Below, in pieces: positions 6,392 to 59,063 of a DNA stretch of 64,000 nucleotides; position 1 is the stretch's first letter, and every line of letters starts with the position of its first letter. Below the pieces are notes generated by a model. The model ran no database searches. It saw nothing but the letters and a program-made list of their open reading frames with translations, and had not been told where the DNA came from. This stretch comes from Pectobacterium aroidearum (lineage in GTDB: Bacteria > Pseudomonadota > Gammaproteobacteria > Enterobacterales > Enterobacteriaceae), in contig NZ_CP166097.1 of the NCBI RefSeq assembly GCF_041228105.1, positions 4,030,001-4,094,000 of the forward strand, in the 5' to 3' direction. A program made the translations under genes and the position numbers.

Positions 6392-7498
6392 ATGATGCAA
6401 GCGCAACAGTTCGCCCATCAGGTGCTGGACTGGTATCAACGCTATGGCCGCAAAACCCTGCCGTGGCAGCTTGAGAAAACTCCCTATAAAGTATGGCTAT
6501 CCGAAGTGATGTTGCAACAAACGCAGGTCACCACGGTTATTCCCTATTTCCAACGCTTTATGGAACGTTTTCCAAACGTGAGCGCGCTGGCGGCAGCACC
6601 GCTGGACGAAGTGCTCCACTTATGGACCGGACTGGGCTACTACGCCCGTGCGCGCAACCTGCACAAAGCGGCCCAGACCATCGTGTCACGTCACGGCGGC
6701 GAATTCCCCACTACGTTTGATGAAGTCGCGGCGTTGCCGGGCGTCGGACGTTCCACCGCTGGCGCAGTGCTGTCACTCTCTCTCGGCCAGCATTACCCGA
6801 TTCTCGACGGCAACGTGAAACGCGTGCTGGCACGCTGTTATGCCGTTGACGGCTGGCCGGGCAAGAAAGAGGTCGAAAAGAAGCTGTGGGCGCGGAGTGA
6901 AGAGGTCACGCCAGCCGAGGGGGTCAGCCAGTTTAATCAGGCGATGATGGATCTCGGTGCAATGGTCTGTACCCGCAGCCGCCCCAAGTGCGAGCTGTGC
7001 CCGCTCAACACCGGCTGTATTGCTTACGCCAACCACAGCTGGGGGCAATACCCCGGCAAGAAACCGAAGCAGACGCTGCCGGAGAAAACCGGCTGGTTCC
7101 TGTTGATGCAGCAAGGATCTCAGGTCTGGCTGCAACAGCGCCCTGCCGTGGGCCTGTGGGGCGGGTTATTTTGCTTCCCTCAGTTCAGTGAACGTCGGGA
7201 ATTGGAACTCTGGATGCAACAACGTGGTCTGAATCCTGATGGATTGCAACAGCTTGTCGCGTTCCGCCATACATTTAGCCATTTTCATCTGGATATCGTT
7301 CCGCTCTGGCTGGACATATCGCAGAGCGATCGCTCACAAAACAGGTCCTGCATGGATGACGATGCGGGTCTCTGGTATAACTTAGCGCAGCCGCCGTCTG
7401 TCGGACTGGCCGCCCCGGTAGAACGCCTTCTGAGGGAGCTGGCTCACCCGCAGTCTACACATTTGAATGCCTGCGCAATTGATGAGGAAGAAGCATGA
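6392..7498 (+). CDS. mutY: Adenine DNA glycosylase MutY
   Basis: Base-excision repair enzyme that removes A mispaired with 8-oxoguanine. The 368-residue protein has an HhH-GPD domain with catalytic Glu38 ([10 protein letters not shown]) and Asp139 (ILDGNVKR), a 4Fe-4S cluster ligated by Cys193, Cys200, Cys203 and Cys209 (spacing C-x6-C-x2-C-x5-C), and a C-terminal NUDIX-like 8-oxoG recognition domain ([12 protein letters not shown]). Either of the two tandem ATGs (6392, 6395) could start it; the E. coli homologue matches the second. It overlaps yggX by four bases. Confidence 0.97.
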
Positions 7499-52795: not shown

Positions 52796-53477
52796 GATTA
52801 AGAAGCGTTATTCGTTTGTTATAATCCACCGGGCACATACATTATTTACGATAATAAAACCTATGGAATAATCTTAAAATCACTGCACTACAGTAAAAAA
52901 AATCATCTATAAGAGAAAAATCAATTATATAGTGCCTTACGGGCTCGTAATCAGGCAAGGATAAAAAACTTACCTATTTGTTGTCAAAGATTATTTAACT
53001 TTCATTTAAGCTTCATACAAACAAAAAGACATTTCATTATTTTTATAAACCCATAGATATTCCACGCCATTCCACATCAAAAACAGCGAATGAAAATAAC
53101 ACATTGAATTAAAATAAATTATCTCGATGGTTATATTTATAGTGCCTTATTCCCCACCAGAGCATAAAAATCAAATATCAGAATAAAAACCTAAATAAAC
53201 ATAAATTTAAAATATTTAATCTAAATAAAAGTAATCAATACAATATATTTGACCAAAAAACTCTCCAACACTACCATCCATCTAGTTTCAGCGTCATCGA
53301 TTGGGGAAGCGGATAAATATATTCAGTCCGTGCAAGGCGATAAGCCGTTACCCGTCAGAAAAGGCATTGTAAAGGTATTACAAAAGAAATGGCACTACTC
53401 ATTATGCATGAATGCGTTCGCACTCATGAGAGTAGCGCGCATGTTTTAAATAATGTAACCAATAGAGAGAGCGTAAT
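52796..53477. promoter_or_regulatory. AT-rich regulatory region upstream of the fimbrial subunit
   Basis: About 680 bases, very AT-rich, no credible gene. Contains the 12-bp direct repeat TATAGTGCCTTA at 52928-52939 and 53138-53149. Long AT-rich promoters of this kind are typical of H-NS-silenced fimbrial operons. I found no invertible-element inverted repeats of the fimS type. Confidence 0.6.
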
Positions 53478-54026
53478 ATGAAACTATCAAAGATCACCCT
53501 GGCATCCCTCATCTCCGTGATATTCTCTGTCGGCGCACACGCTGCGGATTCACATAATGGAACGGTGACGTTTAAAGGGAAAATTATTGATACTCCTTGC
53601 TCAGTATCTCAGGAAGATTTGCACCAAACGATCGAGTTTGGCGAAATCAGCAAAACCGTGTTGGAAAACGGTGGCACGTCAGAAATTAAGCCGTTTGATA
53701 TCACATTAAAAGATTGCAGTCTGGATACCGCCACCAGCGCCAAAATTGTTTTCTCCGGCGGCGCAGCATCCGGCACCAATAATGAAATGCTGGCATTAAA
53801 CGGCAGCGCAACCGGTGCAGGTATTGCCGTAGAACGCGTCGGCGAAAAAATTAAATTCGACGGAACCACGCCAGCTGTTCCTGCTACGCCGTTGGCAAAC
53901 GGGGATAATGTTTTCTCCTTCACATCCTATGTCGCCAAACTCCCAACCCCACAGGAAGGTGAGTCACCAACAATCACCACAGGTGCTTTCTCCAGCACGG
54001 CTAATTTTGTTGTGTCTTATCAATAA
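53478..54026 (+). CDS. Type 1-like fimbrial major subunit
   Basis: 182-residue pilin precursor: signal peptide MKLSKITLASLISVIFSVGA cut at AHA-A. The mature protein starts with the donor strand NGTVTFKGKIIDTPCSV, and the two family cysteines are in DTPCSV and LKDCSL. It ends NFVVSYQ with the usual penultimate Tyr, recognised by chaperones. Sequence is intact, but the chaperone needed for export is not in this cluster because the downstream gene is rearranged, so it may no longer be assembled. Confidence 0.92.
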   Translation: MKLSKITLASLISVIFSVGAHAADSHNGTVTFKGKIIDTPCSVSQEDLHQTIEFGEISKTVLENGGTSEIKPFDITLKDCSLDTATSAKIVFSGGAASGTNNEMLALNGSATGAGIAVERVGEKIKFDGTTPAVPATPLANGDNVFSFTSYVAKLPTPQEGESPTITTGAFSSTANFVVSYQ

Positions 54027-54081
54027 AATATTGATGCGCTAACCATCCATTGCGCTAACAGCAGGGTATAGGCAATCAAAT

Positions 54082-54098
54082 GGGGAGGCCACCTCCCC
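54082..54098 (+). terminator. Hairpin between pilin and usher-hybrid gene
   Basis: GGGGAGG-CCA-CCTCCCC, 7-bp GC-rich stem followed by a weak T-rich run. Probably reduces read-through so that pilin is made in excess over the usher. Confidence 0.65.
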
Positions 54099-54134
54099 TA
54101 ATACATTCTTTATTCCACACGTGGTTTTACGTAC

Positions 54135-56852
54135 ATGGATATCTACAACGCTGTATCTGTTCAAGCACATATTCCTATGGCAATGAAGAATCTTACGTTC
54201 AAAGAAAAAATAAAATCAGCCTTATTTCGCTACGGTTTTTTTATTTTTTCTTTGAATACAACAGCGCTCAGTGCAACGGAATTTAACGTTAACGTACTGG
54301 ATGTCGATGAGCGTAGTGACATTGATCTTAGCCATTTTTCCGATCCTGAATACGTCACGCCCGGCACCTATCTTTTATCAATAAAAGTGAATGCGCGTGA
54401 AATACAGCAGGAGATGATTAGCTACCTGCCGGAAGGCAACCATCAGGCTCGGCCAACGGCCTGCCTCTCGCCTGAACTCGTTGATAAGCTGGCGCTGAAG
54501 AAAGAAGCACGCGACAAGGTCGAGCGATGGAATAACGGCGAGTGTGTCGATCTGACGCCCATTGCCGGCGTGAAAGTGTCTAACCAGATAGGTATGGGAA
54601 CGCTGAATATTACGATCCCTCAGGCCTGGCTGGCGTACAGCGATAGCAACTGGATTCCGCCCGAACAGTGGGATCACGGTATCGGCGGGGCGCTGCTGGA
54701 CTATAACCTCGTGGGTAACGTACGTCGTGATACCCATGGCAGAGGCACATCACACTATCTCAGCAGCTACGGCACTGCCGGGTTTAATCAGGGAGCCTGG
54801 CGCTACCGTGCCGATTACCGCTATTTTCTGCAAAAATCGCGCAACGGAAATCGCGATCGTTTCTCGTGGGATCAGTTTTACGCCTATCGCCCGCTGCCTA
54901 CGCTTTCAGCCGATCTCAAACTGGGTGAAATGTATTTCAGCAGCAACCTGTTCGATAGCTATCGCTTTACCGGCGTGTCATTAGCCAATAACGACAACAT
55001 GCTCCCACCTTCGTTGCGCGGCTACGCCCCCGAAATTCGCGGCGTCGCTAAATCAAACGCTACGGTGACCGTTACGCAAAATGGCCGACTTATCTATGAA
55101 ACCACCGTGCCAGCTGGCCCCTTTGCGATTCAGGATCTGAAGAACGGCGTCAGCGGCACGCTGGATGTCCGCGTGACGGAAGAAGACGGCACGGTGACGA
55201 CGTTCCAGACTGAATCGGCCAACCTGCCTTACCTGACACGGCCGGGACACGTGCAGTATAAACTCGCAGCCGGTAAACCCTCGAACACCAACCATCGCCT
55301 GCAAGGCCCAGCCTTTTCTGCCGCCGAGGCCTCATGGGGGTTATCTAACGCGTGGTCGGTGTACGGGGGCAGTATTTTGTCCGATGGCTACCAGTCCTGG
55401 TCGGCAGGCATTGGGAAAAACCTCTACCTGCTGGGCGCGCTGTCCGCTGACGTCACGCAGTCACGCGCAACGCTCCCAGCGACGTCGTCGCAAATGGGCC
55501 ATGCGTTCTCACTCAACTGGTCTAAATACTTCAACTCGATCGATAGCCAGATCAGTTTCGCGGGCTACCGCTTTTCAGAAAAAACCTACATGAGCATGGC
55601 GCAGTACCTCTACGCACTGAATCTGGATAATCGCTATCGCAATGAAAAAGAGCGCTACACCATTACACTTTCCAAAAATTTCGCGACGCGCGAGTCATAC
55701 TCATGGCTGAGCGGGCTATCGACCTATGTTACCTATACGCGCCAAACCTACTGGAATGAAGCCGAACAGGATCGCTACGGGGTTTCGCTGAACAAGTACT
55801 TTGATATCGGCGCCTTTACCCCGGCTAACATCTCCGGCAAACCCGGCGATGCAGATCAGATCACCGACGCGAACGGGAAAGTGGTTCAAGGCCGTAACCA
55901 GTTTACCGTCACGCCAGCCCATAAAATCTGGGTACAGGACACCTGGTTCTTCTCACCAGAATGGACGTTCAGCGGCGGTCTGGCCTATCAGCACGTAGAA
56001 CGTGACGGGACTAACCTCGGCAGTTTGTATAACGTCGCAGAGAAAAAGAACAAGAAATACCACGAGTTCCTGCCTAGCTTTAACGCAGCCTACCGCATCA
56101 ATACCGAAAATCAGGTGTTCTATAACATCACGCGTAACATGCGTACCCCGCCCAACTACGTTTTGTACAACGTTGGCGATTCCATCAATACCAAACCTGA
56201 GCTGAGCTGGAATCAGGAACTCGGCTGGCGCTTTCAGGACGAAGACATGCTGCTGAGCGCCTCGCTGTTCTTTATCCAGTTTACCGACCGTCAGATCTCC
56301 AGTCGTGACGCCAACGGCGATTACGAAATGATCAACGCCGGGAAAGTGGAAAACAAAGGGCTGGAACTGGAATGGAGCGGCAAGCTGCCTCATAACTTCA
56401 ACTACTTCGCCGCTTATACCTACACCGATACCGAGCAGAAAAACAATCTCGCCACCAGCGGTAGCCAGCTCCCCACCACGGGCAAGCAGGTCGCCAACGC
56501 ACCGAAAAACATGCTCAACCTCGGAGTGGGCTATGACGACGGCCTCTACTATGCCGGCGTAAACAGCCGCTATGTTGGCTCGTTCTACGGCGACATGACC
56601 AATGACGAGAAGATCGGCGGACGTACCGTTTTCGATCTCAGCGCCGGCGTCTATCTGCCAGTGGATAAGAAGATCGTGAAAAGCGCCACCTTACGCTTTG
56701 GCGTCAACAACCTGTTCGACAAAGAGTATCTCGACTCTGCGCGCTCCGTGAGCTTCAACTCAAGATCGTACAACGGCGTATCGGCAGGTACACCGTTTTA
56801 CAACGTTGGGGAAGAGCGCACCTTCAGCGCCTCACTGGAAGCCACGTTCTAA
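54135..56852 (+). CDS. Fimbrial usher / TonB-dependent receptor hybrid (in-frame fusion)
   Basis: One open frame of 905 codons built from two families. Residues to about 560 are a FimD/PapC-type usher: signal sequence, N-terminal subunit-binding domain, plug region (VTQNGRLIYETTVPAGPFAI, GTLDVRVTEEDGT) and first half of the barrel, to RYGVSLNKYFDIGAF. From about residue 561 (TPANISGKPGDADQ, near base 55812) it becomes the C-terminal half of a TonB-dependent receptor (VTPAHKIWVQDTWFF, RYVGSFYGDM, LRFGVNNLFDKEY) ending in Phe. Missing are the usher C-terminus, the chaperone and adhesins, and the receptor's plug, TonB box and front barrel. Starts at 54177 or 54183 are also possible. Probably non-functional for both tasks. 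Confidence 0.88.
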   Translation: MDIYNAVSVQAHIPMAMKNLTFKEKIKSALFRYGFFIFSLNTTALSATEFNVNVLDVDERSDIDLSHFSDPEYVTPGTYLLSIKVNAREIQQEMISYLPEGNHQARPTACLSPELVDKLALKKEARDKVERWNNGECVDLTPIAGVKVSNQIGMGTLNITIPQAWLAYSDSNWIPPEQWDHGIGGALLDYNLVGNVRRDTHGRGTSHYLSSYGTAGFNQGAWRYRADYRYFLQKSRNGNRDRFSWDQFYAYRPLPTLSADLKLGEMYFSSNLFDSYRFTGVSLANNDNMLPPSLRGYAPEIRGVAKSNATVTVTQNGRLIYETTVPAGPFAIQDLKNGVSGTLDVRVTEEDGTVTTFQTESANLPYLTRPGHVQYKLAAGKPSNTNHRLQGPAFSAAEASWGLSNAWSVYGGSILSDGYQSWSAGIGKNLYLLGALSADVTQSRATLPATSSQMGHAFSLNWSKYFNSIDSQISFAGYRFSEKTYMSMAQYLYALNLDNRYRNEKERYTITLSKNFATRESYSWLSGLSTYVTYTRQTYWNEAEQDRYGVSLNKYFDIGAFTPANISGKPGDADQITDANGKVVQGRNQFTVTPAHKIWVQDTWFFSPEWTFSGGLAYQHVERDGTNLGSLYNVAEKKNKKYHEFLPSFNAAYRINTENQVFYNITRNMRTPPNYVLYNVGDSINTKPELSWNQELGWRFQDEDMLLSASLFFIQFTDRQISSRDANGDYEMINAGKVENKGLELEWSGKLPHNFNYFAAYTYTDTEQKNNLATSGSQLPTTGKQVANAPKNMLNLGVGYDDGLYYAGVNSRYVGSFYGDMTNDEKIGGRTVFDLSAGVYLPVDKKIVKSATLRFGVNNLFDKEYLDSARSVSFNSRSYNGVSAGTPFYNVGEERTFSASLEATF

Positions 56853-56881
56853 TCCGTTAATAGTCTAAGTACAGAGCAAAA

Positions 56882-56985
56882 CGGGGGAATGGGATAGAAG
56901 AGTAAAGCGTCCGCGCCAAGGATGGCGCGGCTCGAGCTTACAGGGATGTACTTGCAGCGTCTTTACGATCTACCCATTACCCCCG
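56882..56985. repeat. MITE-like dispersed repeat, short copy
   Basis: 104-bp element with imperfect terminal inverted repeats: CGGGGGAATGGGATAGAAGA at the left; the right end reverse-complemented reads CGGGGGTAATGGGTAGATCG. Internal GCGCCAAGGATGGCGC. Its arms match the outer parts of the element at 16941-17121 in opposite orientation. Non-coding. Confidence 0.78.
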
Positions 56986-57046
56986 TCCGACACACGTCGT
57001 CGCTAATCACAAACAACGCCCAACACGGCAACAGAAGGATCAGGCC

Positions 57047-57730
57047 ATGAACGCCGATATGCTGCACGAGATTATTTTCTACGTCATGTACGCTGCACTG
57101 GTGATCGCACTGATGATCATCATCGAACGCAGTCTCTATTTTTCCTATACGCGTCGGCAGGCCAAGCGTCTGGATCGCGCCCTAACGGCAGATATTCGCC
57201 ACGTGCACGATCTACCGGATGCGCTGACCCAGCGCCCCAGCTTGCCCATCACGGTCGTCACCCCCGTGTTAGCGCAGTCACACCAGGTAGAAAATCGCGA
57301 TGCGCTGAACGACCTGATCGACGCACAATATCTGCAAAGTAAGCCGCAGCTGTCGCGCGGACTATGGATTTTGGAAACTGTCGTCACCGCGGCACCGTTA
57401 CTGGGGCTGCTCGGCACAATCATGGGGATCATCGAAACCTTCAAAGCCCTGTCCGCTGCGGGCATCTCTGACCCGAGCCAGGTTTCTGCCGGAATGGGAA
57501 CGGCGCTGTACGCCACCGGGCTGGGGATCGCCATCGCGCTGGTTTGCCTGCTGGGGAACAATTTCCTGCAAAGCCGAATGGAACACATCAACGAAATGCT
57601 GAAAGTCCTGCTGATTCGCGCCGGAATGCCGCATACTCGCCAACAGAAAGCGGGCCATGCTGCCACGCACCATTCCATGACAGGCAGTGCAGTAACAGAA
57701 AAAGCGATGGCGGAGAAGCGCTATGCTTAA
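57047..57730 (+). CDS. exbB: ExbB/TolQ-family proton channel protein
   Basis: 227 residues with three transmembrane helices: near 10-28, and the conserved pair near 110-140 and 155-180 (ETVVTAAPLLGLLGTIMGI; GMGTALYATGLGIAIALVCLL). It carries the family's T/A-rich ion-path residues. Such proteins power TonB-dependent receptors, and this one follows the receptor remnant. However, no exbD or tonB follows; the next gene overlaps its end by eight bases and encodes a phospholipase D-like protein. It would have to use partners from elsewhere. Confidence 0.88.
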   Translation: MNADMLHEIIFYVMYAALVIALMIIIERSLYFSYTRRQAKRLDRALTADIRHVHDLPDALTQRPSLPITVVTPVLAQSHQVENRDALNDLIDAQYLQSKPQLSRGLWILETVVTAAPLLGLLGTIMGIIETFKALSAAGISDPSQVSAGMGTALYATGLGIAIALVCLLGNNFLQSRMEHINEMLKVLLIRAGMPHTRQQKAGHAATHHSMTGSAVTEKAMAEKRYA

Positions 57731-59063
57731 GCGGGATGGTTTCACCAATCCGGGGCGACGCTGGAAGCATGGCATCAACACGCTGCTAACAGGAGGCGTA
57801 TTGTTTATTGTAAGTGCGTCAGCCCATGCCGACGCCAGCACTAGCGGCTATCGTATTCCCGGCTATGAATTAGTGTATGACGCCCCGGTAGAAACCACGC
57901 TGACCGCCCCTGATTTACGCCCCAGCGATGCGGTGTGGATATCCCTTTTTGATAATGCCCAGCACACCATTGAACTGGGTCAATTCTATGTCGCGAATCA
58001 GGCGGGAACTCGTTTTGATAACGTCTTACAGCATCTGCGTGCCGCTGGCGAGCGCGGCGTGCGAATCCGCCTGCTGCTTGAAGAAAAAGGGCTAAAAATT
58101 TCTACGCAGGACACGCTGGAACAGCTCAAAACGATTCCGAACCTGGAACTGCGCGTGATTCCTTTTGAACGTCTGAGCGGCGGCATTGTGCATGCCAAAT
58201 ACCTGCTGGTTGATGGCAAACAGGCCTACATGGGCAGCCAGAATCTTGACTGGCGGGCGCTGGAACACATTCACGAAACGGGGTTGTTGATCGACGATCC
58301 GCACGTGGTGAATCAGATTAGCGCTATTTTTGAACAAGACTGGCAGGCGCAGGCGCGGCTGGCCCACGGTGAAACCGTGCCACCGTTGCCCGCTGCAACA
58401 CAGCACGTCGATCGTTCGGGCAACTATCTGGTTGCCAGCCCCAAAGCATTCAATCCCGCTGGCGTGATAGATTCCGAAGAAGAACTCCCTCGCCTGCTGG
58501 CAGAAGCCCAGCAGCAGGTACGCATTCAGGTGATGGATTACGTCCCGCTCTCCTACGGCCCGGATAAAACGCGCCCGTACTACGCGGTTATCGATAACGC
58601 GATTCGCGCTGCCGCCGCACGCGGCGTCCAGATCGAGCTGATGGTGTCCGAATGGAGCACCAAAATGCCGAACATCGCCTACCTGAAAAGTCTGGCGGTG
58701 CTACCCAACATCCAGATTAAAACGGTGTCGATCCCCCAGGCCAGCAGCGGTTTTATCCCGTTTGCTCGCGTGATCCACAGTAAGATCATGACCATCGATG
58801 GCAAAAAAGCCTGGATCGGAACCAGCAACTGGAGCGGCGGTTATCTGGATAATTCACGCAATCTGGAGATGGTGATTCAGAACCCAGAGATGGCACAGCG
58901 GGTAGACATGCTTTATACACAACTGTGGGACAGCGCCTATGCACATCCCCTGCGCATTGATTATGATTACCCTCGACCCGATCCGGGTGGCATGAAAGAA
59001 AAAGATCAGGAGAAGGCAAACAGCCCTTCGTCCACGACAGGCGGCACGGTCAACGCACCGTAG
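57723..59063 (+). CDS. Secreted phospholipase D-like phosphodiesterase
   Basis: 446 residues. Long basic N-terminus then a hydrophobic signal segment (LLTGGVLFIVSASAHA), so exported. Two HKD motifs are complete: His157-Lys159-Asp164 with GSQN, and His352-Lys354-Asp359 with GTSNW. The two-motif layout forms one active site that cleaves phosphodiesters. C-terminal tail low-complexity (KEKDQEKANSPSSTTGG). With exbB before and a phytase-like esterase after, it suggests a phosphate-scavenging or membrane-lipid-attacking set. Confidence 0.88.
   Translation: MLKRDGFTNPGRRWKHGINTLLTGGVLFIVSASAHADASTSGYRIPGYELVYDAPVETTLTAPDLRPSDAVWISLFDNAQHTIELGQFYVANQAGTRFDNVLQHLRAAGERGVRIRLLLEEKGLKISTQDTLEQLKTIPNLELRVIPFERLSGGIVHAKYLLVDGKQAYMGSQNLDWRALEHIHETGLLIDDPHVVNQISAIFEQDWQAQARLAHGETVPPLPAATQHVDRSGNYLVASPKAFNPAGVIDSEEELPRLLAEAQQQVRIQVMDYVPLSYGPDKTRPYYAVIDNAIRAAAARGVQIELMVSEWSTKMPNIAYLKSLAVLPNIQIKTVSIPQASSGFIPFARVIHSKIMTIDGKKAWIGTSNWSGGYLDNSRNLEMVIQNPEMAQRVDMLYTQLWDSAYAHPLRIDYDYPRPDPGGMKEKDQEKANSPSSTTGGTVNAP

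Follow-up and report, generated by a model that had tools for sequence, protein, structure and literature searches.

A frame joining the front of a fimbrial usher to the back of a TonB-dependent receptor in Pectobacterium aroidearum, very probably the scar of one large deletion

The barrel of PapC/FimD-type fimbrial ushers is made of 24 strands. That of TonB-dependent receptors has 22, and these receptors carry a TonB box near the N-terminus. In-frame deletion fusions and gene remnants are known as a general kind in bacteria. All of these bear on a gene found in a 64,000-nucleotide stretch of Pectobacterium aroidearum DNA (contig NZ_CP166097.1, positions 4,030,001 to 4,094,000, hereafter the window). 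It is an open reading frame of 905 codons, starting with ATG and located on the forward strand at 54135-56852, in which an usher front is followed by a TonB-dependent receptor back. Like PapC/FimD-type ushers, its product has a leader, an N-terminal domain, a plug region and 16 modelled strands; unlike them, it lacks the rest of the barrel and the PapC_C domain, and the chaperone gene of the operon is gone. It resembles TonB-dependent receptors in its last 13 modelled strands and its C-terminal Phe (among the matches listed, this part is 95-99% identical to that of intact 746-residue Pectobacterium relatives), but the Plug domain, the first 9 strands and the receptor N-terminus, to which the TonB box belongs, are missing. 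As in other bacterial deletion fusions and gene remnants, the junction shares next to no bases, the intervening genes are lost, and relatives carry separate genes; what differs here is that both partners are outer-membrane barrels, cut inside the barrel. We consider the gene to be, very probably, the scar of one large illegitimate deletion, and most likely a double gene remnant.

The two halves, their junction and their separate parents

The preliminary description, made from the sequence alone, had reported a single open frame passing from usher to receptor barrel near residue 560 and ending in Phe, and profile and DNA comparisons bear this out. In Pfam, PapC_N (PF13954) matches residues 49-192 (E 1.1e-36) and Usher (PF00577) residues 212-560, over profile positions 3-344 of 549. 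The intact usher of P. aroidearum L6 (NZ_CP065044.1; same species as the window, labelled both G040 and G050 with identical coordinates) covers positions 3-549 and has PapC_C at 773-829, a domain without Pfam match in the fusion. The usher barrel is thus incomplete, PF00577 being partial and 16 strands being modelled before the join. The PapC structure 7lhg aligns at residues 49-559. On the receptor side, TonB_dep_Rec_b-barrel (PF00593) matches residues 450-860; no Pfam match to Plug (PF07715) was found in the fusion, whereas the intact receptor of another Pectobacterium genome, G007, has one. By sequence, the solved chains nearest to the receptor part are YncD/PqqU, FhuA, CntO/FoxA and FecA. 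The terminal Phe means that a receptor-type C-terminal strand with its aromatic end is kept, also as first described.

Profile borders cannot place the join, because the receptor profile extends about 110 residues into the usher half. The same is seen with NCBIfam (best 25 of 28 matches): usher models stop at or before residue 566 and single-receptor models start at residues 584-692, while the general receptor models TIGR01783 (453-905) and TIGR01786 (from 493) reach back into the usher half. The join was located by DNA alignment. Up to and including GCCTTTA, the fused DNA agrees with the usher of L6 and of other species; from (T)ACC onward it agrees with the receptor of relatives. This puts the junction at 55817..55818, on the border between residues 561 and 562. 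Depending on the relative compared, A or TA is common to both parents, a microhomology of at most 2 bp. A repeat-mediated deletion was rejected on this account. The usher part, residues 1-561 (54135-55817, forward strand), comprises the leader, the N-terminal domain (49-192) and the 16 modelled strands, the sixth of which is followed by the plug region. The receptor part, residues 562-905 (55818-56852, forward strand), corresponds to residues 403-746 of the intact 746-residue G007 receptor, and consists of the remainder of a long loop and the last 13 modelled strands. Chance is not at issue, since the usher side is 99% identical in DNA to L6 and the receptor side 93% to G007.

To look at the undeleted locus, a 4.4-kb query (53400-57800) was compared with 40 genomes, namely the window's own, 23 other Pectobacterium and 16 of the same order. 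The usher half was present in 17 of the 23 other Pectobacterium genomes, every match ending at query position 2411-2419, and the receptor end in 13 of the 23, every match starting at 2418-2427. Both halves were found in 11 of them. In all 11 they are separate genes, on one contig and one strand, in usher-first order, with a spacing of 17.7 kb (G011) to 24.8 kb (G004). One in-frame deletion is well supported by this shared order and strand of the two genes in relatives. The possibility that the receptor-like part is a normal piece of this usher in relatives was rejected: in a listing capped by E-value, none of the 17 usher matches in the genus runs past the limit just given, and the L6 usher continues normally.

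The organisation of both parental loci is visible in relatives. L6 carries the same pilin protein, an intact usher of 845 residues, a PapD-type chaperone (6618-7433 in the extracted stretch L051, with PapD_N and PapD_C in Pfam), a 344-residue protein in the tip position that has no Pfam match, and a second pilin. Its left flank is 98.3% identical to that of the window over 5.8 kb (93.9-99.6% per 500-base block), and the match stops at window position 55818. In G007, the downstream cluster consists of ExbD, a TonB-like protein (TonB_C at 21.2 bits, below the cut-off of 24.6), the 746-residue receptor with Plug and barrel, ExbB and a phospholipase-D-like protein.

To see whether similar fusions exist, two protein searches were made, each against about 5.8 billion proteins, the first scoring only the 7999 candidates that shared most words. 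No fused protein was present among the 120 listed of 2686 matches in the first (ordinary ushers, query coverage at most 64%), nor among the 120 listed of 392 matches in the second (ordinary receptors of 746-749 residues); the window's own fused protein was likewise not among the matches listed in either search. The nearest usher among them was P0001, with 845 residues and all three usher domains. The nearest receptor was P0121, a 746-residue protein with Plug and barrel, from which the receptor part differs at 4 of 344 residues. A literature search on usher-receptor fusions, P. aroidearum fimbriae and illegitimate recombination, judged from titles and abstract openings, gave no paper among those listed that seemed to describe the fusion. 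An excerpt of a report on P. aroidearum LJ2 (PMC9088014), which gives its average nucleotide identity to L6 as 98.33%, contained no mention of a fusion that we could find.

Extent of the loss and origin of the junction

The genome that contains the window is a single contig of 5.28 Mb, rated 100% complete. In it, the 10.2 kb that follow the breakpoint in L6 gave two short matches only (263 bp at 67% and 86 bp at 73%), both outside the chaperone gene, so that no copy of the operon's PapD-like chaperone was recovered. For the subsequent 4.1 kb of L6, one 63-bp match (83%) stood among the own-genome matches, of which 5 out of 6 were listed. The receptor front and its neighbours, represented by the 3.5 kb upstream of the receptor breakpoint in G007, gave no match, in a search made without positive control. 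Each half of the fusion occurs once at high identity in this genome, where other ushers and receptors are 25-33% identical. From the comparison with relatives, the stretch lost would be about 18-25 kb long. Gone with it are the remaining usher sequence, the genes for chaperone, tip and minor pilin, those in between, exbD, the tonB-like gene and the front of the receptor. The preliminary description had proposed one in-frame deletion taking the chaperone, the adhesin(s) and the receptor front; its main point holds, and the loss is larger than it implied. One usher-like gene of 881 residues in an open frame, 33% identical to the present one, is found elsewhere (G000:C1:2363690), and chaperone-usher export as such need therefore not be lost.

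An error of assembly, either a wrong join or some 20 kb dropped at 55817/55818, would produce the same picture. Against it stand the single contig and its completeness, the single occurrence of each half at high identity, the missing parts that were not found elsewhere in the genome, and the near absence of common bases at the join, which leaves no local repeat to mislead an assembler. We regard such an artefact as very unlikely.

Under the deletion scenario, the ancestor would have had a pilin-usher-chaperone-tip-pilin operon and, about 18-25 kb downstream on the same strand, the exbD, tonB-like, receptor and exbB cluster. A single deletion in this lineage, by illegitimate rather than repeat-mediated recombination, would have linked usher codon 561 to receptor codon 403, with a reading frame that happened to be preserved (a chance of 1 in 3). 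The pilus and TonB systems concerned would both have been lost, and the product would have no useful role, the chain being expected to misfold and to be degraded in the periplasm.

Several observations weigh against this scenario. Identity to L6, about 98% on the left, falls exactly at the join to 83-89% in the pieces that are shared, and 98% resumes only near 74.2 kb, a drop which could also mean import. The receptor half has no match anywhere in L6, and was not found in G021, the nearest other species; as both lack it, the undeleted parent was not seen within the species. The blank result for the G007 receptor front lacks a positive control. The usher half is undecayed (12 synonymous and 3 non-synonymous base differences from L6), which agrees with a recent event, though also with function. 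Finally, the non-function of the product is argued from modelled topology and missing parts.

The first of these points are those expected if Pectobacterium DNA carrying the receptor end had been taken up, recombining by homology on the right and joining illegitimately at 55818 on the left, in replacement of the resident segment. We keep this import-linked origin as a rival because the receptor end is found neither in L6 nor in G021. However, L6 itself looks odd in this region: between 3990128 and 3996213 (stretch L052), its matching pieces are 94-99% identical to G011, another species, compared to 83-89% to the window genome, which suggests an interspecies import in L6. Much of the region 61.6-73 kb, in window coordinates, has no long match in L6. 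The right flank of the window is 91-94% identical to G021 and G007, its usual level, and large blocks of it, up to about 74 kb, are colinear with DNA of other species at 84-94%. Moreover, no source of the receptor end closer than 93-94% was present among 24 other genomes of the genus. Since the right flank of the window is colinear and at 91-94% to G021 and G007, whereas that of L6 is G011-like, most likely the window kept its native right flank and lost the middle, and we hold import to be improbable.

If the gene is the remnant of a deletion, its importance more likely lies in offering a clean example of one illegitimate event that took away a pilus system along with a TonB system. It is also a warning, as such a frame may get annotated as a single outer-membrane protein of 905 residues.

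Folding prospects of the fused chain

The preliminary description had also raised a folded hybrid barrel, and here the models argue against it. Sixteen strands are modelled in the usher half, and the receptor half brings the last 13 of the intact receptor model, which makes 29. The kept receptor part does not form a complete 22-strand barrel: its first residue is receptor residue 403, within the loop that links strands 9 and 10 of a low-confidence model. By the same models, the usher half should end on the periplasmic side while the receptor half starts in an expected extracellular loop, so that the direction of the receptor strands would be reversed. An excerpt of Franklin et al. (PMC6340704) calls all bacterial barrels even-stranded, and reports 11 strand redirections in 2642 alignments, each put right later in the chain.

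The AlphaFold2 (AF2) model of the fusion is in line with this. Per 10-residue block, the predicted local distance difference test score (pLDDT) is 54-93 in the usher half from residue 51, and 23-46 in the receptor half; confidence collapses at the join, and nothing is confident after residue 558. In this model the receptor half shows 11 strand-like stretches rather than 13, all but one residue having a pLDDT below 50; 11 is odd too. The alignments behind the intact receptor and fusion models were shallow (17 and 26 rows, mean pLDDT 48.7 and 55.7, respectively). Since the two alignments also differed, the receptor half of the fusion cannot be judged cleanly against the better-scored strands of the intact receptor. 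For the fusion, alignment A1 was discarded as five short receptor rows landed on the usher half, and A3 because 8 receptor rows had their first residues dispersed over that half; in A4, which was used, one row (L099) is misplaced and six receptor rows have 2-3 residues astray. Because both models have low overall confidence, they argue against folding without proving it, and a hybrid barrel appears unlikely.

A working hybrid protein could be imagined in two ways. In one, the C-terminal signal of the receptor for the barrel assembly machinery (BAM) would bring about the insertion of the chain as a new barrel. In the other, the usher strands, 16 in number, would close on themselves like a porin around the usher plug region, and what is left of the receptor would be tolerated as an appended tail; a single deletion would then have made a new outer-membrane protein out of two unrelated barrel families. 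The kept C-terminal strand alone is no proof that the chain folds. As to the second way, a fold comparison of the fusion model found residues 182-556 porin-like, but this is weak evidence, since the alignment, with usher rows cut at residue 561, favoured a 16-strand closure. No TonB-dependent receptor was among the 50 rows listed in that comparison, which says little, the receptor half being of low confidence. With the odd strand count, the reversed topology and the low scores beyond the join against it, a working hybrid is scarcely to be expected, and the porin-like closure in particular is just as doubtful. Should the chain fold all the same, two barrel families would have been naturally combined out of register in a single barrel, a case that would challenge the view that strand direction is conserved and strand number even.

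Neighbouring genes and minor features

The intact pilin gene upstream and exbB downstream, both noted at the outset, were confirmed. The pilin gene (53478-54026, forward strand; PF00419, E 2.9e-17) encodes a type-1-like pilin of 182 residues of the fimbrial operon, identical in protein to that of L6 with 6 synonymous differences, and now lacks a complete usher and a chaperone of its own. The ExbB/TolQ-family gene (57047-57730, forward strand; PF01618) is, by the gene order of G007, what remains of the TonB cluster. It is followed by the phospholipase-D-like gene (57723-59063, forward strand; PF13091), in the same order as in G007, where the counterpart is at 700-2046 of L026. These two genes (57047-59063) persist in the absence of exbD, the tonB-like gene and a complete receptor gene, all three located ahead of them in G007, and may be functionless or serve other receptors.

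At the start of the fused frame, in-frame ATG candidates within 54135-54185 are at residues 1, 15 and 17. The true protein may have about 889 residues, as the leader after residue 17 resembles a signal peptide by eye. A scan for promoters and terminators was uninformative (7 promoter-like sites for 5.2 expected, 9 terminator-like sites for 5.1 expected). Between the fused gene and exbB, away from the deletion junction, lies a dispersed repeat of about 124 bp (56878-57001), which we take to be ERIC-like and which has many short matches, at about 80-97% identity, in the Pectobacterium genomes listed.
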